DNA from: Desulfovibrio sp.
GTDB taxonomy: Bacteria > Desulfobacterota > Desulfovibrionia > Desulfovibrionales > Desulfovibrionaceae
Direction of reading: 5' to 3'
Length of the DNA: 60,028 nucleotides
Assembly: GCA_031276485.1 (NCBI GenBank)
Contig: JAISMY010000041.1
Coordinates: 1-60,028, forward strand
Shown here: piece after piece, positions 15,094 to 47,009 of the stretch
Position numbering within the stretch: position 1 is the stretch's first letter
Layout of the letters: each line of letters starts with the position of its first letter
Program-made: the position numbers and the translations under genes
The notes under the pieces: generated by a model
Databases searched by the model: none
What the model saw: only the letters and a program-made list of their open reading frames with translations
Told to the model about the DNA's origin: nothing

Positions 15094-16212
15094 ATGAACG
15101 AACGCGCCGTGCGCAACAGGGTGCTGCGTTTTGTGCTTGCGGCGCTGCTGTTCGGCACCGGGCTGTATGCTTACAGACACTTTCAGGGTCCCGGCCGTGA
15201 AGGCGGGCCGCCTCCCGGACCGCGAACGGTACGCGCCGCAACGGCGCGTACCGGCGATGTGGACGTCTTCATACGCGCCCTGGGCACCGCGACCTCCCCG
15301 CACACGGTAACCGTCAGAAGCAGAGTGGACGGCGAACTCACAGCCCTGCATTTCGTCGAAGGCAGGCAGGTCGCCGCAGGCGACCTGCTGGCGGAAATCG
15401 ACCCCAGACCGTACAAGGCGCAGTTGCAGCGGGCCGAGGGCGCGCTGGCCACGGATGAAGCCCTGCTCAAACAGGCGCGGCGGGAGTTGGAGCGTTACCG
15501 GAAACTTATCAGGGAACATTCCGTTTCAGCGCAGCAGCTTGAAACACAGGAAGCCGAAGTCGGCCGACAGGAGGGCGCGGTTAAGGCAGGCCGCGCCGCC
15601 GCCGCTGAAGCCGAACTCATGCTGGAGTACTGCAGCATCCGTTCGCCCGTTTCCGGCAGGGCGGGCCTGCGCAGAGTCGACCCCGGCAACATGATTCGCG
15701 CTTCGGACGACGAAGGTATCGTGGTTATAACGCAATTGCAGCCTATGAACGTGGTTTTCACTCTGGTCGAGAACCAGATAGGCGACGTGCTGAAGGCCAT
15801 GTCCGGAGGCGCTCCTCTCCTTGTGGAAGTGCGGGGGCAGGACGGGACGCTTATCGAAAACGGCGAGCTGCTGACCATAGACAACCAGATAGACGCGAGT
15901 ACCGGCACAGTAAAGGCCAAAGCGGTTTTCTCCAACAAGGAGGGGTTGCTCTTTCCCAACCGTTTTGTGAATGTCCGCCTGCGGGTTGCTACGCTCAAGG
16001 ATGCGCTGCTTATCCCTACCTCGGCCGTGCAGCGCAACAATGAGGGGTCTTTTGTCTATGTGGTGGAGAACGGCAGGGCGGTCATGCGGAATATTCGCCC
16101 CGGTTACGCGCAGGACAGGGAATCCGTGGTGGAGGAAGGGCTGCGCGCAGGCGATGTTGTCGTCATTGACGGGGTGGACCGTCTGCGCAACGGCCTGTCG
16201 GTCGTTTATTGA
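15094..16212 (+). CDS. RND-type efflux periplasmic adaptor (membrane fusion protein)
   Basis: Such adaptors join an inner-membrane pump to an outer-membrane channel. The 372-residue chain has one N-terminal membrane segment (about 7-28), a lipoyl/barrel-sandwich part with SRVDGELTALHFVEGRQVAA (about 71-90) and LAEIDPRPYKAQLQRAEGAL, a coiled-coil hairpin (about 118-165), then SIRSPVSGRAGLRRVDPGNM (about 183-202) and the beta-barrel domain with QIDASTGTVKAKAVF. It starts 21 bases after secF. An RND pump gene would normally follow directly; here convergent genes begin, so the pump is missing or encoded elsewhere. Confidence 0.88.
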   Translation: MNERAVRNRVLRFVLAALLFGTGLYAYRHFQGPGREGGPPPGPRTVRAATARTGDVDVFIRALGTATSPHTVTVRSRVDGELTALHFVEGRQVAAGDLLAEIDPRPYKAQLQRAEGALATDEALLKQARRELERYRKLIREHSVSAQQLETQEAEVGRQEGAVKAGRAAAAEAELMLEYCSIRSPVSGRAGLRRVDPGNMIRASDDEGIVVITQLQPMNVVFTLVENQIGDVLKAMSGGAPLLVEVRGQDGTLIENGELLTIDNQIDASTGTVKAKAVFSNKEGLLFPNRFVNVRLRVATLKDALLIPTSAVQRNNEGSFVYVVENGRAVMRNIRPGYAQDRESVVEEGLRAGDVVVIDGVDRLRNGLSVVY

Positions 16213-16277
16213 CGCGGTGCGCGCATCGCCTGCCTGCTGCGCTTTTCACATCAGGACTGTGCCGGTGCGGATCGGGA

Positions 16278-17669
16278 TTACGCCATGTGCAAGTCCTGCA
16301 TGATCGTGTCTTGCGTTCCATCATAACGCAGGCAGTCCTCCATCTTTTCCTTGCCGTGTCTCTTTGCCGTTTCCGCATACAGAGGAGTGCCGGGGAAAGG
16401 GACGCAAGAGGAGAGCTGGAAGGTACGATATGGATTGTTCTCCATAAAACCGAGATTTTTTAAAATTTTTTGGTCTTGCTCAAAAATCGCATCTGTCTGG
16501 CCCGGCAAATTCCGCATCGTTGTCAGATGAAATTTTACACGCGGATATTGACGTGTCAGCCTACGTAGCGTGTCGAAAGTTTTTCGACTGCTGAATCCCT
16601 TATTGATACGCTTTAAAACATCCAAATTAAAGCTCTCAATCCCAAATTTCATGCCTACACAACCGCAGGAGATCATTTTTTCGAAAAGTTCCAGCGGCGA
16701 TGTGTCTATACGAGCCATTATTCCCCACGGCAATCCGAGCTCCTTCATGTATAAGCAAAGTTTTTCTATGCGCTCATTGCCGATGTTGAAAGTATCGTCA
16801 TCAAAATAGACATGTTGATATCCGCAGCATTTTACGTCTGTTGCGATTTCTTTGGCAATATACTTGGGATCTCGCAGAGATACGTTGTTGCCGTACATGG
16901 TGCTCGGCCAGAGGCAAAAAGAGCACCGGAACGCACAGCCTTTGCTGCCCCACATCTGAAGTTGCGGGACAGGCATATTCGGAATCCAGTAGTCTCTGGC
17001 AAGCTGGGCACCGAAAAAAGTGCGGTCAGGAGTAGGTATTGAATCAAGATCCTTTACCACATCAAGCTCATATATACCGGCACGCCTGGTTAAAACCATT
17101 TCCAGAGCGGAATTAATATACTCTCCTTTCAAGAAATACCGTATCGCCGGATGCTCCGCGCATAGCTCTTTTGCAGTAAAATCATTGACGCACGGTCCGG
17201 CGAGGGCAACTTCCGAAAACGCTGATATCATATTGCATAGCCAGAGATCAATATCAATGGAACTATAAGATCCTTCAACAATAACAATATCAGGTTTACG
17301 TTTTTTCAGATCGTTAAGTAAAGTATCATAAGAATATTGACGTATAGCTACACAATCTATAATTTCAGTTTCAATGCCGTTTTTCCGTAAAAAAGCAGAT
17401 GTATATGCCATGATAAAAGGGAAAGGCACATAGTTGTAATTTACGCGCTCTGCGGTATGCGGCCACCTGGAACCGGCTCTGACCCCGTAGCGTATGCCGG
17501 TAGAATACGGCAAAAGGCTATGAGCAATTTCAGGTCCGTTGGAACTGCAAAAACTTTCCTTGAGCAGATCGTATTGCACCAGCCGGTCCAAGCCGAGAAA
17601 AACGCCGCTGTCGCCGTGGCGTACAAAGGGGGCATTGACCAGCACGATTTTGCATTGAGGTATGTTCAT
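16278..17669 (-). CDS. B12-binding-type radical SAM protein of unknown product
   Basis: The protein has 463 residues. The N-terminal part (about 7-190), with VLVNAPF and KRKPDIVIVEGSYSS, looks like a cobalamin-binding-type Rossmann domain, but the classical DxHxxG motif is absent. The radical SAM core has MWGSKGCAFRCSFCLWP, with the cluster cysteines C245, C249 and C252, followed by HVYFDDDTFNIG and MKFGIESFNLDVLKRINKGF as in this superfamily. ATG 17669 is preferred, with GAGGGA 9 bases upstream. It is the last gene of the sugar island and may modify the sugar or lipid carrier. The exact reaction is unknown. Confidence 0.75.
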   Translation of the reverse strand: MNIPQCKIVLVNAPFVRHGDSGVFLGLDRLVQYDLLKESFCSSNGPEIAHSLLPYSTGIRYGVRAGSRWPHTAERVNYNYVPFPFIMAYTSAFLRKNGIETEIIDCVAIRQYSYDTLLNDLKKRKPDIVIVEGSYSSIDIDLWLCNMISAFSEVALAGPCVNDFTAKELCAEHPAIRYFLKGEYINSALEMVLTRRAGIYELDVVKDLDSIPTPDRTFFGAQLARDYWIPNMPVPQLQMWGSKGCAFRCSFCLWPSTMYGNNVSLRDPKYIAKEIATDVKCCGYQHVYFDDDTFNIGNERIEKLCLYMKELGLPWGIMARIDTSPLELFEKMISCGCVGMKFGIESFNLDVLKRINKGFSSRKTFDTLRRLTRQYPRVKFHLTTMRNLPGQTDAIFEQDQKILKNLGFMENNPYRTFQLSSCVPFPGTPLYAETAKRHGKEKMEDCLRYDGTQDTIMQDLHMA

Positions 17670-17675
17670 ACGCAC

Positions 17676-18743
17676 CTATCCCTCAAAAAAGCCGAAAAAA
17701 GATTTCAAGGTTTGTTCTTCGCGTTTAAGCCAGGCAAAGGTGTCTTCAAGCAGGGCCGGCAGCCCGCGCGCGGGACGCCAGCCGGTACGCGCTTCTACCT
17801 CTGTATTGTCGCTGATATACCAGGGAATATCCGCAGCCGCGGTTTCAGGAACGGCATTGACGGTCACTATATGACCGGTAGCTTCGCGGCACAACTCCGT
17901 CAGTTCACAGAGAGACACGCTGTTGCGTTTTCCGCCTCCGACATTCCAGCAGGCTCCGTCATAGGTTGTCATGGTCCTGATTTCGCGTTCGATCAACTCA
18001 GCCAAATCATAAACATGCAAGATATCACGGACTTGCAGGCCAAAGCCGCCGAAACCCAAGTAGGACAGCCGGCCCTTCCAAAGATGTCCGGCCAGCCACA
18101 GGCTGAAAAAACCCTGATCAACTTTGCCCATCTGCCCAGGTCCGGCAATGACGCCGCAACGGTTCACGATAAACGGTACATTGTAAACGGCGTGATACTC
18201 GGCAAGCAACAGTTCCGACGCCAATTTGCTCGCTCCGTAGAGAGAGCGGCTTCCCGCAAGCGGGAAGCTCGCGGATATTCCCTCTGTAGACCAGCCCTGT
18301 CCGCCGTCTTCCGGGCTGAGATAAAAACGTGTCGCGCCGTGACGCAGAGGCAGGCTGCGCAGGTGCGCTATAGGATAAACACGACTGCTGGAGAGGAAAA
18401 TTATTCCGCATTGTCGCCGGCGCGCATATTCCAGGCAGTGCATGCACCCTACCAAATTGGTATTGAGCAGGTACAACGGACTTTCTCCATACCCGGCAGA
18501 TACGGAAGCTTCCGCGGAACATTCGCAGAGCACGTCACAATCCGGAACAGTCTCAAGATCTTCGGGATTGCGTACGTCCCCGTGAACGACGCGGATACCG
18601 TGCTGCCCGAGGGGGGCAATGTTGCGTTCGCTGCCTCGCCGTTTCAGATTGTCAAGTGCCGTGACAGTATGGCCTGCTTCTGCCAGGAACATGGCCAGGG
18701 TTGAGCCGACAAAGCCGCAGCCGCCTGTAATCAGGATGCGCAT
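17676..18743 (-). CDS. NAD-dependent sugar-nucleotide epimerase, CDP-paratose 2-epimerase-like
   Basis: A short-chain dehydrogenase-fold enzyme of 355 residues acting on a nucleotide sugar in the cytoplasm. The NAD motif is GGCGFVGS (about 7-14). DNLKRRGSERN and VVHGDVRNPEDLE (about 36-65), NTNLVGCMHCLEYARR, SRSLYGASKLASELL with the catalytic Tyr/Lys, and VNRCGVIAGPGQMGKVDQGF are typical of the CDP-paratose/tyvelose epimerase branch. Its start overlaps the end of the glycosyltransferase gene by 13 bases, and its stop touches the radical SAM gene, so translation is coupled. Confidence 0.8.
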   Translation of the reverse strand: MRILITGGCGFVGSTLAMFLAEAGHTVTALDNLKRRGSERNIAPLGQHGIRVVHGDVRNPEDLETVPDCDVLCECSAEASVSAGYGESPLYLLNTNLVGCMHCLEYARRRQCGIIFLSSSRVYPIAHLRSLPLRHGATRFYLSPEDGGQGWSTEGISASFPLAGSRSLYGASKLASELLLAEYHAVYNVPFIVNRCGVIAGPGQMGKVDQGFFSLWLAGHLWKGRLSYLGFGGFGLQVRDILHVYDLAELIEREIRTMTTYDGACWNVGGGKRNSVSLCELTELCREATGHIVTVNAVPETAAADIPWYISDNTEVEARTGWRPARGLPALLEDTFAWLKREEQTLKSFFGFFEG

Positions 18744-20005
18744 TTTTGTGCCGGAACCGGAGGATTATGCGGGAAATGCCCGCCTGCCGGCGGGTTCAGG
18801 CAGGCATAGTCCGGAAAGCGGACTGTTTCGGCATCGGCCGCTACGGCAAAGTATGTATCGGCATTATGAAAGGCGCGGCATACTTCTCCCGCAGCGGCGG
18901 CTTTGGCCCGGTTGTCCGCAAGATTTTGCTCGAAATTCAACATGGCTCCCGCCAATGCTTCCGGGTCCGATTGCTCCATAAACACGCTGCCGTTGTCAAG
19001 CCGTTCAAGTTCTTCCTCCATAGAGGAGTAACGGGTAGTGATACAGGATACGCCAAGCGCGGCAGCTTCCAGAGCTACTTGGGAAATGCGGTTGCGATAC
19101 ACGTGCGCAGCGTATGGCAGGAGTACGGCATCGGAGCATGCGATATGTCTGTAATAATCATCTCCATACAAAGGACCGATAAACAGTTCGATTTTATTCG
19201 GGAAGGCGTCACGCAACAGTGGAAGATTGTGTTGAGCAAGTTTACATACCTGTTTGGTCGGTTGCAGTTGAATAGTAAAACGCCCGCGACCGCCGGCTGC
19301 GAAATATAGTCGGACGGCATCGGGAATGATTTGCAGGTTTTTTTCTTCGCGCACTTCCCCCGCGATGCAGAAAACAGGGATAGGATTATCATTTCGCTTT
19401 ACTATAGGAGGAAGCCGCAGCGGTAGAGGCAAAATGCGGACAGGGCGCCCGGAAGCAGCCGCAATCTTTCGGCATAGCGGCACATTGCTGCCATAGATTT
19501 TTACGGATTTGCAATCGAATATTTTTGAAAGTGCTGCTCGGTACTGCATAAAATCCTCTTCATTATCATCAAATGAATGCTGAATATTCAGCACTATACT
19601 CGGCATATTCTTTCGGCTTCGCATAAACCATTTATATACAGCATAAATGACGACAGCATTTGCTGTATGACAAAGTATTCGTACATCGTTATCAAGATAT
19701 GGAGTGATGTGACTTTCCAGCTCATCTGCAAATATATCCGAGTAAATAAGAAAAAATTCAAATTTATTGTTATAACTCATTTGTGAATATATTACCTCTG
19801 TCATAACCGGATACAAATGTGCTGTTTCTACTCCGGATATCTTGTATTCTAATGTACAATTACACGCAATATTCCTTTGTGAAAAAATTATACATTCAAT
19901 ATTTCTTTTTGCACATTCGCTGCCTATATTTATAAATGTAGAATAATGATGTCCTTGAATTGAAAATCCTGGATCAATTATTATCAAACGCTTTATATTT
20001 TTCAT
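18731..20005 (-). CDS. GT-B fold glycosyltransferase (GT4-like)
   Basis: Probably transfers a sugar during surface-polysaccharide assembly. The 424-residue protein begins MKNIKRLIIIDPGFSIQGHH, with an N-terminal Rossmann half, and the C-terminal half has FCIAGEVREEKNLQIIPDAV (about 228-247), SDAVLLPYAAHVYRNRISQV (about 311-330) and EAAALGVSCITTRYSSMEEE, the usual donor-binding layout. The 5' half of the gene (about 19560-20005) is clearly richer in A/T than its neighbours, which suggests import from another genome. It lies between two epimerase genes, 3 bases after the upstream one. Confidence 0.75.
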   Translation of the reverse strand: MKNIKRLIIIDPGFSIQGHHYSTFINIGSECAKRNIECIIFSQRNIACNCTLEYKISGVETAHLYPVMTEVIYSQMSYNNKFEFFLIYSDIFADELESHITPYLDNDVRILCHTANAVVIYAVYKWFMRSRKNMPSIVLNIQHSFDDNEEDFMQYRAALSKIFDCKSVKIYGSNVPLCRKIAAASGRPVRILPLPLRLPPIVKRNDNPIPVFCIAGEVREEKNLQIIPDAVRLYFAAGGRGRFTIQLQPTKQVCKLAQHNLPLLRDAFPNKIELFIGPLYGDDYYRHIACSDAVLLPYAAHVYRNRISQVALEAAALGVSCITTRYSSMEEELERLDNGSVFMEQSDPEALAGAMLNFEQNLADNRAKAAAAGEVCRAFHNADTYFAVAADAETVRFPDYACLNPPAGGHFPHNPPVPAQKCAS

Positions 20006-37094: not shown

Positions 37095-38099
37095 CTAAAA
37101 TCCATCCTGTCGAGAGCATATGATATGACCGAAAACGCGCGGATGCCCGGCGATGCGCCGACCGTCGGCGTAAAAACGGATCTGCCCGGCATGCGCCCGG
37201 CGCTGGACGCTTTTATCGGCGTAGGCGCAAGGCGCGCTGTACCGGTTGCGGTCAAAGGTGATCGGGCATTGCGGGCTGACCCGGACTTCCCGGGGCATGC
37301 AGGCCTCAAAGGGAAGTACGCTCTCCCTTCCATCAAGCGCACATTTGACGTTGCCGGGAATCATATTTACCCACTTGAATATGCTGTCATGCAAGACTTT
37401 ATTACCACTTGCGCGCAGAGGCATATGCTCACAACCCCAGATCTTTACTGCTGCAAAACAAGGCAATCCATCAGTAATTACCGTGCACTCGTCCGTCAAA
37501 AAGGAGGCCGCCGCTTCTTTAACGGCCTTACCTGTGAAGCCTGACACAGGATAAAGTTTCATTCAGTGCGGTTTGCCGGCGTCTGTAGTCTCCACAGCGG
37601 CCACGAAAGGTACTTTTCCAGCAGCCCCGCGCCCCCGTTTTCCCTCGCGTTTACCGCCGATATAGGCATCGTCCATTTCCACCCGACCCTTGAGGGGCTT
37701 TTTTGCTTCTCGCTCATGCATAACCTGCATCAACTTATGAGAAATTTTCCAGGCGGTATTCTGCGTAACGCCCAGGCGACGGGCCAGTTCGAGACTGGAA
37801 ATGCCGCCTCTGCTTTGGGTGATGTGGTACATAGCTCGAAACCAGGTTTGCAACGGCAGTTTGGTGGAATGGAATACCGTTCCCGCTGTGAGTGAGACTT
37901 GCGAACGGCATGCCGAGCATTGATACAAAACGCGAGTTCCGATCACGCTGTGCTTGCCGGCTCCGCATACGGGACAAATAAATCCCTTGGGCCAACGCCA
38001 AGTAAAAAGAGCTTTCCGGCATTGCTCCTCAGTTCCGTACCAGCGGTCAAAATCCGCATCACTCATACCTTTTTGAAACTGCACAAGATTACGAGACAT
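37095..38099 (-). pseudogene. chimeric transposase scar: IS1595-type with in-frame stop, ending in an IS21 IstA tail
   Basis: From ATG 38099 (AGGAG upstream) the frame gives an ISXO2/IS1595-type transposase: zinc ribbon CPVCGAGKHSV / YQCSACRSQ, helix-turn-helix RRLGVTQNTAWKISHKLMQ, and the DDE start EMDDAYIGGKREGKRGRG. A TGA stop at 37563-37565 interrupts it directly before an ATG in the same frame; the sequence goes on with TDECTVITDGLPC and FKWVNMIPGNVKCALDG. There it turns, without a frame change, into RESVLPFEACMPREV and ITFDRNRYSAPCAYADKS, the C-terminal part of IS21-type IstA. The element lies 37 bases upstream of the PilZ gene. Confidence 0.75.
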
Positions 38100-38123
38100 A
38101 TCCAACTCCTGCATTTTACACAT

Positions 38124-40802: not shown

Positions 40803-40934
40803 TCGTAAATACATCATGCTGTTTTTCTTGGAATCCAAGTATCGGCGTCCGTGAACAAACCGCAAATATTAAACTTGAAAAGGCAGGTATTTTCAAATTG
40901 CAACAACAACATCTATATCTAAAGAGAGGTAAGT

Positions 40935-41209
40935 ATGTCATATGCTATTTCATTTGATCTTGATACTGAACAATTAAAACAAATCCATCCATCACAATCA
41001 CGGAAAAATGCTTACGGAGATAAAAAATTTAATGCCTCTCGGCTTTGATTGGCAGCAAGGCACCATCTATTTTGGAACTAAGATAGCTACTGTTAAATGC
41101 GTTCTTGCAGCGCAGAAGTTAAGTCAGACTTATTCATGGTTTAAACCGCGTCCGCGATATTGGAATGTTGCGGATTGCAGAATTAAATGACTTAACACCA
41201 GCTCTTTAA
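40935..41209 (+). pseudogene. vapD: broken vapD (virulence-associated protein D, toxin-type RNase)
   Basis: VapD is a small Cas2-like ribonuclease of toxin-antitoxin type. The pieces are MSYAISFDLDTEQLKQIHPS and NAYGD in the first frame (stop at 41046), then LGFDWQQGTIYFG and KCVLAAQKLSQTYSWFKP in the second, then VRDIGMLRIAELNDLTPAL in a third, ending at TAA 41207. Two small indels, near 41010-41030 and near 41150, break a full-length VapD of about 90 residues. It is A/T-rich unlike the flanking genes. No intact partner gene is visible. Confidence 0.8.
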
Positions 41210-41240
41210 TGTAAAAACAAAAAAAACAGTAAAGGCAGGC

Positions 41241-44200
41241 ATGAGCATACCCTTCACAGCTTTCCGTAAAGCTTCCGGACGGGCGGCGCTTGCGGCCGCC
41301 GCGTTCCTGTTCGTCTTTACGTCCGCAGCGGCCTCCGCCGCGGACATCCTGGCCTCGGACAAGGTCGTCGCTCCCGAAGCCCTGCTGCCCTACCTTTCCT
41401 GGCTTGCCGATCCGCAGGGCGAGATAAGCATGAGCGACCTGAGCGCAGGCGCCGTTCAGGAACGCTTCACCCCGCTGTACAAGGGCATCCCGCTCAAAAA
41501 CAAGGGGCCGGTGTGGTTCCGGCTGGTGATGGTCAGCGGCCGCCGGGACGGCGGCGGAGCTGTGCCCGCGCAGGCCGGTGTACGGTTGAGCATGAACCTG
41601 GGGCAGCTTCCGCCCGGCGGGGCGCGGCTCTTTTATTCCGAGTCGCCTGGGCCTGTTTCCGCTCCAGGGGTATGGCACAGCGAAACAATTGATTCGCGCG
41701 AAGAAACTCTGCTGCCGGAAACCGGGCTGGCGCCGGTGAGCATTTTCATCCGTATGGAGGAAATGCCCGGCTTGTGGTTTTCGCCTGTGATCGGGCCGCA
41801 GTCGGCGGCGCGTGCCGGCCTGCTGCCCCTCGACCTGCTGCTGCCCGGGATAACGGCCGCCGCCGCCGTGGCCTGCCTGCTGCGTCTGGCCGCCGACCGG
41901 GCGCTGTGGGCGCTGTGGGCCGCGCTGTATCTTGCCTGCGTGCTGGGACAGAGCAGTCTGCCCTTGCCTTCGCCGGACAGGGGATTTGCGCCGGAAAACC
42001 TTCCTGCCCTTCTCGCCCCCGGCCTGGCTCTGCTGATTCTGCCCCATGTCGGGCGTTGCATGTTCCGGACGGACAAAGCTTCCATGCTGAAGGACGGGTC
42101 GCTGTACTTTTGTTCGCTGCTGGGCGCGGCGACGGCGGTGCTGCCGCTTGTGCCGGGTTTTTCCTGGCTGACCCGGCTGTTCCCGCTCTCCCCCCTGCTG
42201 CTTGCGCCCGCCCTGCCGTTCTGCCTGTCGTCCATGGCCGCGAAGAGAGCCGGCGCGCCGGCCTTCAGCGGCGCGGTCATCATGCCCGTCATCGGCGCGC
42301 TGCTCTGCCTTGCGGCCCTGAAGTATCCCGATTTACATCCCGCGGCCGCCCAGGGCGGACTTTGGGGTATGGCCGTCGGCGGCCTGGGTTTGGCCCTTGC
42401 CGGAGTTCCGCGCAATGCCGCGGGACCGGGCGCAGAGGACCAAGACAAACAAGGCCCGGCTGCGCCGGATATGCCCGGAGGTCTGAGCGCGGCTTTTTCC
42501 GTGATTTCCCCGCAGAGCCAGTATGAGGAACTGCCGACCATGGCGGTAACGCACATCGGCGGTGCCGGTGATGCGGAACAGGCCGGGACGCCCGGCAGCG
42601 TTGCCGGCCCGGAAGACGGACGGCAGGGCGGGGACGCGCCGGCAGGCGGCAAGGCCGGCTTGCTGCGCATATCCGGAAATCGGCGCGAAAAGACGCAGGA
42701 TATTCCGTTTCTCCTCCCGTCCGGAGAGAACCGCTCCTACCTTGATCTGCCGTCGGAGGTCATGAACATACTGGAGGGACCCGTGCCGACCGGCAACATG
42801 CAGACGGGTTCATACCCTTTCAACCTCCATACCCTCGTGCGCCAAGTCCATGACATAGTGTCGCCCCTGGCTGAAAGCAAGGGCCTGATATTTTCCTGGT
42901 ATATGTCGCCTTCTCTGCCGGTATTGCTGGAAGGCGATTCACCGCGCCTGCGCGGGGCGTTGATCCTGCTCCTGCAAAGCGCCGTACAGGCGGCCGACGG
43001 CGGTGCCGTGCAGCTTGCCGTGCGCCGGAACCCCATGACCTCGTTTGAGGGCGACCTGCTGTTCAGCATCAGCGACAACGGGTCGGCCCAGCGCACGGAC
43101 GCGGGTTTTTTTCTGGCCTGGGAACTCTCCTCCCGCACCGGCGGCGCATTTACCGTGGACTATTCGGCAACGGGCGGGACGCGCACTGCTTTCAACGTGC
43201 GCTTCAAGCTGCTTGACGCGGAAACGGCGTTCGACCCTGCCGCTTCGGCGCTTCCGTCTCGGGGCAAAGCGGAAAGCGCCGCGCCCCCGCCGCGCATCGG
43301 CGGGACGCGTCCCCTCTGCATACTGCAGGCGGAAATGACAGGCGGATCAAGACGGCATACAGCGCGTTGTCTGGAAGGCGTACCGCATACCGTCGTCAAC
43401 TCGTTTGATGAAGAACAGCTTGTGCGCCTGGCCGGGGAACATGAGCCGGATCTGGTGATTTTTGACGCGGATACGCCTGAAAACGTCATTGCCCGGTGTA
43501 TCGCCGACCTGCGCAGCGACGAAGGCGGCAAAGTACGCAAGCGCGCGGCGGTTCTGGTGTTGACCGGCCACGACATGCAGGCGGCCCGGCTTCTGGAAGC
43601 CGGCGCGGATTACGTTCTGGGCAAACCATTTACGCGCGAAGCGTTTCTGGATGCCCTCGCGGCTGCCGTTCCCTCTGTCGCCCCGCGGATCCGGGCCTTG
43701 GGAGCGGCGACCGCCGACCGCCCCGACATGTCCGCCCAAGCTGTCCCATCCCCTGAGCGCGGCGTTTCCAGCACCGACCCGACAGGTTCGCCCGCCTTCG
43801 GCGCCGCTGAAGATGTGGCGTGGGAAACTTTTACCCCGCTGCATGAAATCTCCCCGCCGCACGGCAATGCGGGGCGGACTGCGGCGGCCGGAGCCTCCGG
43901 CGCGGACGCCTTTGCCGCGCATGCGGGCGGCGGGCCGCAGACTCCTGTACCGGCGCCGGCAGCGGAGCGTTACGCGCCGGGGCCGGAGGGAAGCGGGGAG
44001 GCCGATGCGGTCAAGCTGCCCATACCGGCCCGTCTTATTCCCAAAGGCATGACACCGGACGCACCGGTGCCGGCGAGCGCGCCCGAACCTGCGCTGCTTC
44101 CCGCGTCCGCCGCCGCATCCGCTCCCGCAGGAACGTACGAGGCAACATTCGGCGAAGCGGAAGATTCCGATGCACCGAAGCTGCCCAGACCCGCCCGGCT

Positions 44201-46253
44201 TATTCCAAGAGGCATGGCTGCGGAAAGGCTGGAAGGCGAAAGCAGCACGAAGACTGCCTCCCCTGCCGGACCTTTCGCAGCCGATGCCTCCAATGATCCG
44301 GACTCGGTCCTTATGCCGGGACAACATCTTTCCCGCGACCCGTTTCTGGATCCGTCGGTGGCCTTTCTGCGGCCCACATTCACTCCACCCGGCCGTCCTC
44401 CCCTGCGTGAAGCCGTAAAACTGGCCACCGGGCTGGAAACTTCGGGCGCGGTAAGCGATGCTTTGGAAGCGCCTGCGCAGTCCGCCGGGCATGAGGCCGG
44501 CCTGCCCCGGCCCGCGAGCGCTGTTGCCGCGCCGGCAACGGCCCCGGCAGGGGACGGGAGCGGCAGGTCCCAAACCGCGGGCGATGCGCCGGCAACGCAG
44601 GCGAACACGGGTGGAGGAGGGGGGCTCGCCCCGGCCCGGCAGAGCCGCAGCGGGCAAAGCCCGGACGTGCCCATGCGCAGACGCGGGCAGAGCAGCGGGA
44701 CTGTTGACGCGCAGACGGAGCAACAGACGCAGGCAGGCCCCACCCGGCCGGGGGTACGCCTTCAGGTTCAGGCGCAGCCGGCCGCTGCGAAACGCCTGTC
44801 TTTTTCCGCCGGCAAAGGAAATGAGGCCTCCGGCCCGGCGCGGCTGGTCCCAACCCTCGCCGGCGCGGGCCGCGAACGCCCGGAGGCGTCCGCGCACGGC
44901 GCGCGCCATGTGGCGGAACGTCCGGGCGCTGTGCAGGTGCAACTGCCGCCCAGGCACGGTATACCGCGCAAGGGAGAGACAGACGTCAGCAGCGCCGCCG
45001 GAAACGCGACCCCGCAAACACGGCAGCCGGCAGGTACGCCGCACGGCATGCCGGTATCCGTTCATCCCTCCGAAAGCCCGGCCGGCGGGACGTTTTCCCT
45101 CCGGATACCCCGGCCCTCCCGGAACAGTCAGGACCGCGCCGGGCAAAACCCTGATGAGACTTCCGCTCAAACCGGCCGAGTCCGCGCCGCGCAAGTTCGG
45201 GACGGCGTTACCCGAACTTCGCAAGCCCCCGCCGCGCAAGTCCGGGACGGCGCTGCCCCAAGTGAATCCGCCGGCTCCGGAGCCGGCCTGGTTGGATCCG
45301 GGCAAGCCGCCGCTTCCCGCGGAGAAGAACAGACCTCCTTAGAGAATGCGTACAACGGCGTCGGCAGCGGGGCCGTGCAGGCGGTAATCGGCAGGGCGGC
45401 ATCGGATGCCGCGCCGATGGTCATGGGCCTTTCTCCCGAAGATGTCGTCGCGCCGGCAACGGCTCCGGCGGCAGCGCCTTTCCGGCGCGCCGAGGGCGGG
45501 AAGCGCGGACTGCCCGGCGGAGAATTCCTTATTGATCCGGACGCCGTACGAACGGCAGACCGGCTCGAGGACGCGAAACAAGCAGGCGCAGGGCGCGGGC
45601 GGGAAGAAGAAAAACGCACTTTGCCCGGTTCTTTGATTGACTTTATGCTGCTGGATTCAGCGCAGGATGATGATGATGATGGCGACGGCGGCGCGGCAAC
45701 CGTGACCGGACGGCCGGGTCCTCCGCAGACGGGAAACACTGCGGCCGACAAGACAGAGCGTGAAGTCGGCGCAACGCCCGGCCCCAGGACGAAGGCGGAC
45801 GCCGCCCGGAGCAAGGCAGCGCCGGCCGTGCCGCAGCCCCCCGCCCGGAACAGGACGGCATTGCGGCCCGCTCCGAAAACTCCGATCACGAACCTGTCGG
45901 CTGCGCTGTCCGTGCCTTTGCCGGGCCTGGATGGGGAATTTCTGGATCCTGACGCATTGCGTTTCCTGCCGGGGCTGACTGAGTCCCTTGCGGACGCCCT
46001 GCGGGATGCCGGGAAAGGCGTGGATGAAAACCGGCCGGCCCTGGTTCAGGAAGCAGCCGCGCGCATGGCGTCCAAGGCCGAACATTTCGGACTGAGCCGT
46101 TTGGGCAGACTGGCCCGTTGCCTGGAGCGGGCAGCCGAAGCTCGGGATGAGGAAGCCGCGGCGACCATTATGGAGGACCTGCGGCGCGCATCGCTGCAGT
46201 ACGAGAAGGCGCTCGCGGAGTGCTCCCGCAGCCTTGCCGGCGTTGACGGCTGA
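41241..46253 (+). CDS. very large degenerate hybrid sensor kinase: 7TM sensor, HATPase-like, receiver, disordered linker, Hpt-like end
   Basis: 1670 residues. A signal peptide (1-34) is followed by a periplasmic domain (about 35-190) and about seven membrane spans (about 195-390), the 7TMR-DISM layout. LVRQVHDIVSPLAESKG to FNVRFKLL (about 531-660) looks like an HATPase domain (LRGALILLLQSAVQAADGG as N box, FSISDNGS as G box), but no HisKA helix with a His precedes it. A receiver domain follows (about 689-815; D742, D744, K795). About 815-1560 is Pro/Ala-rich with internal repeats: KLPIPARLIPKGM / KLPRPARLIPRGM, and GEFLIDPDAV / GEFLDPDALRF. The last 100 residues resemble an Hpt helical bundle, but the phosphoacceptor position reads AARMASKAEHFGL, without the His. 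It overlaps nothing and kdsB follows in 3 bases. Confidence 0.7.
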   Translation: MSIPFTAFRKASGRAALAAAAFLFVFTSAAASAADILASDKVVAPEALLPYLSWLADPQGEISMSDLSAGAVQERFTPLYKGIPLKNKGPVWFRLVMVSGRRDGGGAVPAQAGVRLSMNLGQLPPGGARLFYSESPGPVSAPGVWHSETIDSREETLLPETGLAPVSIFIRMEEMPGLWFSPVIGPQSAARAGLLPLDLLLPGITAAAAVACLLRLAADRALWALWAALYLACVLGQSSLPLPSPDRGFAPENLPALLAPGLALLILPHVGRCMFRTDKASMLKDGSLYFCSLLGAATAVLPLVPGFSWLTRLFPLSPLLLAPALPFCLSSMAAKRAGAPAFSGAVIMPVIGALLCLAALKYPDLHPAAAQGGLWGMAVGGLGLALAGVPRNAAGPGAEDQDKQGPAAPDMPGGLSAAFSVISPQSQYEELPTMAVTHIGGAGDAEQAGTPGSVAGPEDGRQGGDAPAGGKAGLLRISGNRREKTQDIPFLLPSGENRSYLDLPSEVMNILEGPVPTGNMQTGSYPFNLHTLVRQVHDIVSPLAESKGLIFSWYMSPSLPVLLEGDSPRLRGALILLLQSAVQAADGGAVQLAVRRNPMTSFEGDLLFSISDNGSAQRTDAGFFLAWELSSRTGGAFTVDYSATGGTRTAFNVRFKLLDAETAFDPAASALPSRGKAESAAPPPRIGGTRPLCILQAEMTGGSRRHTARCLEGVPHTVVNSFDEEQLVRLAGEHEPDLVIFDADTPENVIARCIADLRSDEGGKVRKRAAVLVLTGHDMQAARLLEAGADYVLGKPFTREAFLDALAAAVPSVAPRIRALGAATADRPDMSAQAVPSPERGVSSTDPTGSPAFGAAEDVAWETFTPLHEISPPHGNAGRTAAAGASGADAFAAHAGGGPQTPVPAPAAERYAPGPEGSGEADAVKLPIPARLIPKGMTPDAPVPASAPEPALLPASAAASAPAGTYEATFGEAEDSDAPKLPRPARLIPRGMAAERLEGESSTKTASPAGPFAADASNDPDSVLMPGQHLSRDPFLDPSVAFLRPTFTPPGRPPLREAVKLATGLETSGAVSDALEAPAQSAGHEAGLPRPASAVAAPATAPAGDGSGRSQTAGDAPATQANTGGGGGLAPARQSRSGQSPDVPMRRRGQSSGTVDAQTEQQTQAGPTRPGVRLQVQAQPAAAKRLSFSAGKGNEASGPARLVPTLAGAGRERPEASAHGARHVAERPGAVQVQLPPRHGIPRKGETDVSSAAGNATPQTRQPAGTPHGMPVSVHPSESPAGGTFSLRIPRPSRNSQDRAGQNPDETSAQTGRVRAAQVRDGVTRTSQAPAAQVRDGAAPSESAGSGAGLVGSGQAAASRGEEQTSLENAYNGVGSGAVQAVIGRAASDAAPMVMGLSPEDVVAPATAPAAAPFRRAEGGKRGLPGGEFLIDPDAVRTADRLEDAKQAGAGRGREEEKRTLPGSLIDFMLLDSAQDDDDDGDGGAATVTGRPGPPQTGNTAADKTEREVGATPGPRTKADAARSKAAPAVPQPPARNRTALRPAPKTPITNLSAALSVPLPGLDGEFLDPDALRFLPGLTESLADALRDAGKGVDENRPALVQEAAARMASKAEHFGLSRLGRLARCLERAAEARDEEAAATIMEDLRRASLQYEKALAECSRSLAGVDG

Positions 46254-46256
46254 CCT

Positions 46257-47009
46257 GTGATTTTGCAACATCCGGCAGCCTACGGCATAATCCCGGCGCG
46301 TTACGCTTCGACGCGTTTCCCCGGCAAAGCATTGGTCCTCCTGAAGGGATTCCCGATGTTTTATCACGTCTGGCGGCGGGCTTTGCGTTGTCCGGAATTG
46401 GCGTCCGTGACCCTGGCCACGGACGACGAGCGTATACGGGACGCTGCGAAGGCCTTGGGCGTCCCGGTCCTGATGACTTCGGCCCGGCATGAAAGCGGCA
46501 CGGACCGCGTCTACGAAGCCGCATCAGCCATGTTGCTTGCGGAAGATGCGGTGGTTGTCAACATTCAGGGCGACGAGCCGGCCCTGGATGCGGGGTGTAT
46601 CGGCAAGCTGGTGCGGGTTTTTGCCGACCCCAAGGTGCAGGCGGCTACGCCGGCCGCTCCGGGGGACCCCGCCGATGCGGAGCGTCCGGACAAAGTCAAG
46701 GTTGTTGCGGATGCCGAGGGCAACGCCCTCTATTTTTCCCGCGCGGGCATACCTTATGCGAGGGACGGCACATACGCCGCGCCGCCGCTTGTACACACGG
46801 GTATTTACGCGTTCACGATGCGCGTGTTGCGGCGTTTTGTCGCTCTGACGCCCTCTCCCCTGGAACGCACGGAAAAGCTGGAGCAACTGCGCCTGCTGGA
46901 AAACGGCATCAAGGTGCGGGTGCTTGTGACGGACAGGACCACGCCGTGCGTGGACCGTGAGGAAGATACGGCGGTCGTGCTGCCCCTGCTTGAAGATTAC
47001 GGCGCGTAA
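46257..47009 (+). CDS. kdsB: 3-deoxy-manno-octulosonate cytidylyltransferase (CMP-KDO synthetase)
   Basis: It activates KDO with CTP for lipid A-core synthesis. The 250 residues show [18 protein letters not shown] (about 9-26) with the nucleotide-binding Arg/Lys, ATDDERI (about 54-60), [11 protein letters not shown] (about 78-88), [10 protein letters not shown] (about 102-111) and [16 protein letters not shown]. It begins with GTG 46257, 3 bases after the previous stop, so translational coupling with the large sensor-like gene is likely. Confidence 0.93.

Follow-up and report, generated by a model that had tools for sequence, protein, structure and literature searches.

AHP6 of plants, a soluble, single-domain pseudo-Hpt, has the Hpt fold without the His, and DivL of Caulobacter has a Tyr in place of the His. 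RcsD of Enterobacteria is a membrane protein that combines a degenerate HisKA/HATPase with a C-terminal Hpt, and its Hpt His is functional. In tripartite hybrid kinases of the TorS/BarA type, HisKA, HATPase, receiver, and Hpt domains follow one another in the cytoplasm. The kinase core of DivL, which has no kinase activity, is described in PMC4211667 as repurposed into a binding module that reads a response regulator: DivK~P is bound through the interface for response-regulator docking, and DivL also possesses PAS domains. RetS of Pseudomonas aeruginosa is described in PMC5992135 as having a degenerate HATPase without G-boxes, no autophosphorylation, and a direct interaction with GacS, which it damps in three ways that include the uptake of phosphate on a receiver Asp; the same source gives RetS phosphatase activity. 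RetS also has a HisKA with an H-box and a second receiver. Searches of the open-licence literature returned no paper linking a 7TMR-DISM histidine kinase with Desulfovibrio and none matching a search for a degenerate pseudokinase-type hybrid histidine kinase, and the accessible text of a D. vulgaris fitness paper (PMC10102598) contains nothing on the gene described here.

The 60,028-nt stretch of Desulfovibrio sp. DNA that was analyzed (contig JAISMY010000041.1 of assembly GCA_031276485.1; hereafter the window) comes from a 2.23-Mb draft genome that is 86.9% complete. It encodes one intact giant ORF of 1670 aa, with exact coordinates and no interruption. A first-pass annotation, made from the letters of the window alone, had read this ORF as a hybrid-kinase-like protein with the order 7TM sensor, HATPase-like domain, receiver, linker, and Hpt-like bundle, and Pfam matches, although weak, fall in that order (Table 1). 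Family profiles made the HATPase_c and Hpt assignments firmer, and AlphaFold2 models of residues 516-818 and 1552-1670 revealed no unrelated folds, as judged from their secondary structure. Among NCBIfam models the giant ORF matched TorS (E 6e-8) and, weakly, RcsD (E 2.5e-5); an Rfam search of the window gave no match. The linker length agrees with the approximately 750 disordered residues of the first-pass annotation, and its disorder is suggested by composition.

Table 1. Coordinates of the giant ORF, its parts, and its immediate neighbors in the window
Feature	Coordinates	Strand	Evidence or remark
TM-anchored TPR gene, upstream neighbor, hydrophobic N-terminal segment	40170..40802	+	
Whole ORF, putative pseudo-hybrid histidine kinase, 1670 aa	41241..46253	+	ORF translation; intact homologs
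Signal-peptide-like hydrophobic N-terminal segment, residues 15-33	41283..41339	+	Hydropathy
Periplasmic domain, 7TMR-DISMED2 / RetS type, residues 35-190	41343..41810	+	Family Pfam matches and PDB profile search
Seven transmembrane segments, 7TMR-DISM_7TM type, residues 199-390	41835..42410	+	Family Pfam matches, hydropathy
HATPase-like domain lacking the ATP lid and G2 box, residues 523-661	42807..43223	+	Profiles, AlphaFold2 model, dN/dS
Receiver, residues 691-815; E698, D742, T775, K795; M699	43311..43685	+	Pfam, alignment, model
Pro/Ala/Gly-rich linker, 742 aa, residues 816-1557	43686..45911	+	Composition
Linker repeat copy 1, KLPIPARLIPKGM, residues 925-937	44013..44051	+	
Linker repeat copy 2, KLPRPARLIPRGM, residues 980-992	44178..44216	+	
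Linker patch DPFLDPSVAFLRP (FLDP), residues 1033-1045	44337..44375	+	Counterparts in L022, L024
Linker motif APMVMGLSPEDV, residues 1391-1402	45411..45446	+	9/12 same-genus rows
Linker motif PGSLIDFMLL, residues 1462-1471	45624..45653	+	6/12 same-genus rows
Hpt-like four-helix bundle, residues 1558-1664; Ala1607, Cys1627	45912..46232	+	Profiles, hhalign, AlphaFold2 model
kdsB, Pfam cytidylyltransferase	46257..47009	+	Adjoins the giant gene only in the window's genus, among loci examined

Hydropathy analysis of the sensor region gave seven hydrophobic clusters, at about residues 199-390, preceded by the signal-peptide-like segment at 15-33. With the window row alone, Pfam gave no match of this region to PF07696 (7TMR-DISMED2) or PF07695 (7TMR-DISM_7TM); among the aligned homologs, these models matched 17/29 and 12/29, respectively. 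A sensor profile searched against the PDB gave three weak matches at E≤0.1, 3jyb (E 0.0028), 9jpe, and the RetS entry 2xbz (E 0.0047). The DISMED2 plus 7TM sensor that characterizes RetS is therefore recognized here through family members and the profile, not through the window sequence by itself.

The HATPase_c model matched the window at residues 565-615 with an E value of 0.2, under the gathering score, and was found in 23 of 30 family members at E≤0.1. A family HATPase profile retrieved histidine kinases from the PDB (E 6.4e-23), with the RetS structures 6dk8 and 6dk7 ranking second and third. The AlphaFold2 model of residues 516-818 (303 aa, pLDDT 86) reads as a lid-less HATPase-type sandwich followed by a (beta-alpha)5 receiver, and its pTM of 0.57 leaves the relative placing of the two domains unfixed. 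Both the ATP lid and the G2 box (GxGLGL) are missing from the window domain. Spacing between the G1 Asp and the GG is 22 residues in 12/12 same-genus rows of the alignment versus 46 in L118, L077, and L070, the value for L070 having been read by eye because the automatic count fails for most rows of genus g21, where the profile match ends early. Outside g21, the G2 box occurs in 0/54 rows, and the same distance is 22-32 rather than 46. G1 residues Asp612 and Gly614 are present in the window and kept in 57/63 and 53/63 rows; the N-box position holds Ser580 in the window and Asn in 7/12 same-genus rows and in 17/63 rows across the family. Likeness to the RetS-type HATPase without G-boxes is thus partial, the G2 box and lid being gone and the G1 Asp and Gly remaining.

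The reported absence of HisKA held: no Pfam HisKA match was found in the window ORF, and a regular expression for the H-box after the TM part had no match in 59/68 family rows, the window included. An H-box is present in 9 of the 63 rows with a HATPase domain, all from g21. By eye, a HisKA-like helix with its His replaced could be seen in L062, L063, L065, L066, L071, L072, and L078, and in none of the rows of the window's genus. The giant protein therefore possesses neither the HisKA H-box His nor the N-box, lid, and G2 box of a canonical hybrid histidine kinase, nor the HisKA with HExxT motif of the RetS subfamily.

Response_reg matched residues 707-806 (E 8.6e-6, under the gathering score). 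The receiver retains D742 and K795, as the first-pass annotation had stated, together with E698 and T775; M699 occupies the second acidic position, leaving four of the five active-site residues and not the canonical set of D, K, T, and two acidic residues. In the model, D742 closes the third receiver strand and T775 the fourth, and K795 follows the fifth, the usual places of the active-site residues of receivers. The acidic pair is [DE]-Met in 12/12 same-genus rows, and D and K are kept in 12/12. Across 65 family receivers, the Asp is kept in 37 and gone in 28, the Lys is kept in 31 and gone in 34, and both acidic residues are kept in 11. All five residues persist in only four receivers (L064, L065, L070, and L127), three of which (L064, L065, and L127) are in kinase-dead rows, which points to phosphate uptake in some members. 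By the strict definition given in the accessible part of PMC12632262, at least one of five conserved residues missing, the window receiver is a pseudo-receiver despite its four residues, as are 61 of the 65 in total.

The Hpt-like bundle was matched by Pfam at residues 1581-1648 (E 0.07, under the gathering score), and PF01627 was found in 19/26 family members at E≤0.1, the best at 2.2e-5. Searched against the PDB, its profile hit the sensor protein 3myf best (E 0.0014), and most of the matches ranked next were designed helical proteins; AlphaFold2 modeled residues 1552-1670 (119 aa) as a four-helix bundle (pLDDT 91, pTM 0.83); the fold is thus recognizable by both profile and model. In agreement with the Ala noted in the first pass, hhalign set Ala1607 opposite the phospho-His of a canonical Hpt (probability 69.8), and the residue sits in the second helix of the modeled bundle, the usual place of the Hpt phospho-His. 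The phospho-His of a canonical hybrid kinase, or of an RcsD-type phosphotransferase, is accordingly replaced by Ala1607. It is absent from 52 of 53 family Hpt domains; the exception, L125 (genome G092), has a His at this position without the following Lys-Gly. Cys1627, in the third helix, is kept in 49/53 rows despite the loss of the His.

The giant protein resembles RetS in its DISMED2-type domain with 7TM, degenerate HATPase, and receiver, and RetS structures are among the best PDB matches of its HATPase profile and weak matches of its periplasmic profile; unlike RetS, it has no HisKA, a single receiver, a 742-aa linker, and a His-less Hpt-like bundle. With RcsD it shares a degenerate kinase and a C-terminal Hpt, and with AHP6 an Hpt fold without the His, AHP6 being soluble and single-domain. 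Like DivL it would have a repurposed kinase core, in which, here, no DHp helices were recognized. Its cytoplasmic domain order is that of the TorS/BarA-type tripartite kinases, the presumed ancestor type, which is intact in the g28 proteins L118 and L119; the giant lacks their HisKA, ATP lid, G2 box, and Hpt His. Without a HisKA it falls outside the RetS subfamily, and a RetS- or DivL-like way of working is, by analogy, the best reading.

The sensor profile matched 119/247 genomes of the bacterial family at E≤1e-6, and 112/247 genomes and 18/44 genera after removal of seven weak matches (three of g28 and G155, G087, G044, and G030), mostly in single copy. It missed three of 15 same-genus genomes (G004, G010, and G013), which are 65-86% complete. 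Outside the family, an order-wide sample (297 genomes) yielded nothing beyond weak matches, in six f4 genomes at E about 1e-16. From a chosen sample of matches we extracted 68 ingroup and three outgroup genes (L118-L120, outside the family counts), after L030 and L014-L016, which matched only ordinary kinase regions, had been dropped; in addition, L070 was left out of A2, L029 and L074 of A1, and L073 of A5 (42/43 given). The sensor is present in all 68 ingroup rows, the HATPase-like domain in 63, the receiver in 65, and the Hpt-like domain in 53. Six of the 15 rows without an Hpt match reach a contig end and nine are intact, and five intact ORFs have no HATPase match, so that no single cytoplasmic module is indispensable. 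Sixty family ORFs of 734-2035 aa are uninterrupted (L072 omitted), and the gene is kept in genomes of 1.4-1.6 Mb (G215, G229, and G209), with neither a HATPase nor a receiver match in G209 (L141).

The decay of the kinase parts looks stepwise across the family, judging from its residues. Outgroup proteins L118 and L119 have SHEIRTPL, the N-box, the G-boxes, the complete set of five residues in the receiver, and an Hpt His followed by Lys-Gly. In g21, the H-box and N-box are present in 9/10 rows and the G2 box in eight by regular expression and in L070 by eye; the Hpt His is gone, the receiver Asp is Ala in L077 and L113-L117, and L117 has no HATPase match. The remaining genera, the window's included, lack the H-box, lid, and G2 box. 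NCBIfam matches weaken in steps, from TorS at E 7.5e-118 in L118 through BarA at 3.3e-61 in L070 and TorS at 5.4e-21 in L065 to TorS at 6e-8 in the window. In a careful tree built from sensor columns only (66 rows; L029, L073, L079, L131, and L143 omitted, and L029 also from a first tree), the 53 kinase-dead rows lie on one side of a branch with support 99/95, and ten g21 rows group on another (98/90). Because of the long outgroup branch, the split is better secured than the root, and the common lid deletion gives the same direction of change as the rooted tree. The expectation that orthologs lack a normal HisKA therefore holds within the kinase-dead clade and not in g21, which branches outside it, and for the Hpt His it holds in all but one of 53 domains. 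RetS, DivL, and similar pseudo-kinases have been known as single cases; here intact, half-dead, and dead forms can be aligned within one family whose tree is rooted, which makes a postcatalytic role of the kinase core testable.

From receiver to Hpt the family varies between 47 and 1071 aa, with 742 aa in the window. Median summed linker length is 808 aa in 39 non-g21 rows versus 361 aa in eight g21 rows, and the outgroup proteins L118 and L119 have 384 and 418 aa. Linker sequence is mostly unalignable, yet short conserved motifs are present. These motifs were picked by eye and then counted, close relatives share them by descent, and the shuffles test composition only. APMVMGLSPEDV and PGSLIDFMLL occurred 0 times in shuffled linkers. 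As to the internal repeats proposed for the window, one was found, at residues 925-937 and 980-992 (KLPxPARLIPxGM), and its excess is modest, the enclosing pair scoring 71 versus a maximum of 61 in five shuffles. The motif [ED]WVG[ED]P occurs, in one to three copies each, in 20/34 sister-clade rows (L062, L063, L065, L071-L073, L075, L076, L121-L123, L125, L126, L132, and L144-L149) and in no other family row. EWVGEP, written as a degenerate DNA pattern, had 35 matches in 18 of 30 chosen genomes, 33 of them inside the giant gene by coordinates and two on a different contig (G074:C118) of a genome in many fragments; the reversed pattern had one match. Because EWVGEP recurs in several genera, in tandem, amid unalignable sequence, we prefer a docking linker to a mere spacer, and the gene-specific motif gives a direct handle on a partner. 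The open-licence literature searched contained nothing mentioning EWVGEP. A second motif, [LI]PDLFG, occurs in 10 rows from three genera (L062, L063, L122, L123, and L144-L149).

Nei-Gojobori dN/dS was calculated for eight regions of the window protein against L019, L020, L021, L022, and L024. The HATPase-like domain gave 0.042, 0.069, 0.094, 0.25, and 0.211, respectively, the last two being rough, since dS exceeds 1 in every region of the L022 and L024 pairs. It was the lowest of the eight regions in four of the five pairs, the receiver being lower (0.164) against L024. In the three closest pairs dN/dS was 0.16-0.17 for the receiver, 0.20-0.32 for the Hpt-like bundle, and 0.46-0.56 for the linker, most of which is thus weakly constrained. 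Selection is thus guarding the fold or surface of this dead ATPase domain.

That the protein is under selection though its phosphate-passing parts have been lost suggests a function by binding other proteins, and we lean, with modest confidence, towards a pseudo-hybrid histidine kinase acting mainly by protein binding, like RetS or DivL. Its ancestor would have been a 7TMR-DISM tripartite hybrid kinase (HisKA-HATPase-REC-Hpt) whose autophosphorylation and Hpt relay chemistry, to judge from the residues, were probably lost. A cue from outside the cytoplasm would be sensed by the DISMED2-like periplasmic domain together with the 7TM bundle. Two-component partners may dock on the lid-less HATPase-like domain, the receiver, and the His-less bundle, by analogy with RetS and DivL, and the long linker may supply short motifs for further partners. 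Loss of activity we infer from residues, and ligand sensing, the partners, and the direction of control are likewise presumed. Against docking, EWVGEP, its strongest sign, is missing from the window's genus and from 14/34 sister-clade rows; the intact ORFs without a HATPase or Hpt match and the weak constraint on most of the linker also count against it. The first-pass annotation had suggested a scaffold or a phosphate sink, and these remain the two leading readings. As a sink of the RetS type, Asp742 would be phosphorylated by a partner hybrid kinase, draining or diverting its pathway, and the other domains would position it. The invariant D and K of the window's genus and the complete receivers of kinase-dead rows mean that phosphate chemistry may persist, and the retained E698 and T775 and the receiver dN/dS favor it too, but the second acidic residue is Met throughout the genus, and with D and K so often gone elsewhere a sink is not the function of the whole family. 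It is possible in the window's genus; as an account of the protein we consider it rather doubtful, though a serious contender.

Kinase activity in trans, in which the HATPase-like domain still binds nucleotide and a partner supplies the HisKA helix, would fit the retained G1 residues, the N-box Asn of some same-genus rows, and the strong constraint, but the G2 box is lacking in every non-g21 row, the lid is shortened, and the window has Ser for the N-box Asn, making this improbable. Envelope control had been argued from the tight join to kdsB. The join itself is real, the earliest possible kdsB start, a GTG, lying 3 nt past the giant's stop, and kdsB comes next in 10/11 same-genus loci with downstream sequence (window counted). 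It follows the gene in 0/19 loci searched from other genera, three of which break off at the giant gene or shortly past it. Confined to one genus among the loci searched, the join does not carry the argument, and because the signaling domains rank among the constrained parts, a role in building the envelope, linked to kdsB and lipopolysaccharide synthesis and leaving those domains as relics, has little to recommend it. The lost catalytic residues and fast-evolving linker could suit a decaying pseudogene or functionless relic; set against 60 uninterrupted ORFs, strong purifying selection, and retention in small genomes, this is hardly credible. Returning to the binding function, we propose more tentatively, as a conjecture we would not yet put at even odds, that in one bacterial family a complete membrane phosphorelay machine was dismantled stepwise, the Hpt His first and in one clade then the H-box and lid, and rebuilt as a 7TM-anchored interaction hub. 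Docking codes particular to each lineage (EWVGEP repeats in one clade, different motifs in the window's genus) would sit in its long disordered linker for a dedicated partner, and selection would have kept the hub even where genomes have shrunk. If so, living species would display every step by which a bacterial equivalent of a receptor-anchored scaffold arose.

A TM-anchored TPR gene lies directly upstream of the giant gene in 49/60 loci with at least 600 nt of upstream sequence. It was considered as an exclusive partner and rejected, being present also in genomes without the giant: it matches 189/247 genomes and 28/44 genera, including the giant-less g5, g25, and g29. Nine TPR regions of giant-less genomes were inspected as longest non-overlapping ORFs only, including L158 from g28, whose outgroup kinase lies elsewhere. 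The TPR match was seen in five (L154, L155, L156, L160, and L161), the other four being uninformative, and no family sensor or Hpt match lay beside it in those five; the L161 region contains an ordinary HATPase/receiver ORF. Since the TPR gene occurs without the giant, it is an old neighbor and not a proven partner. EWVGEP as a TPR-binding motif was also rejected: g7 and g13 rows have the motif, and their genomes are not among the TPR matches.

Farther upstream on the same strand is a pfkB-family gene (38963), and beyond kdsB are a complete histidine kinase (47249) and a sigma-54-type response regulator (48827). The gap between the TPR and giant genes (40803-41240) is 438 nt versus 3-170 nt in L019-L021, counted to the first possible start. 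It seems rich in A+T, carries near-identical repeats of 12 nt at 40879 and 41231, and is single copy in the genome. Pfam gave no match to two pieces of a broken small gene within it, whose frames resemble VapD, and the gap may be an insertion remnant. Close to the operon, on the reverse strand, a transposase-like ORF (37563-38123) has a zinc-ribbon-type start and looks like the IS1595 type. Positions 16000-20000, at about 49% G+C versus about 60% for the window, are possibly acquired DNA.
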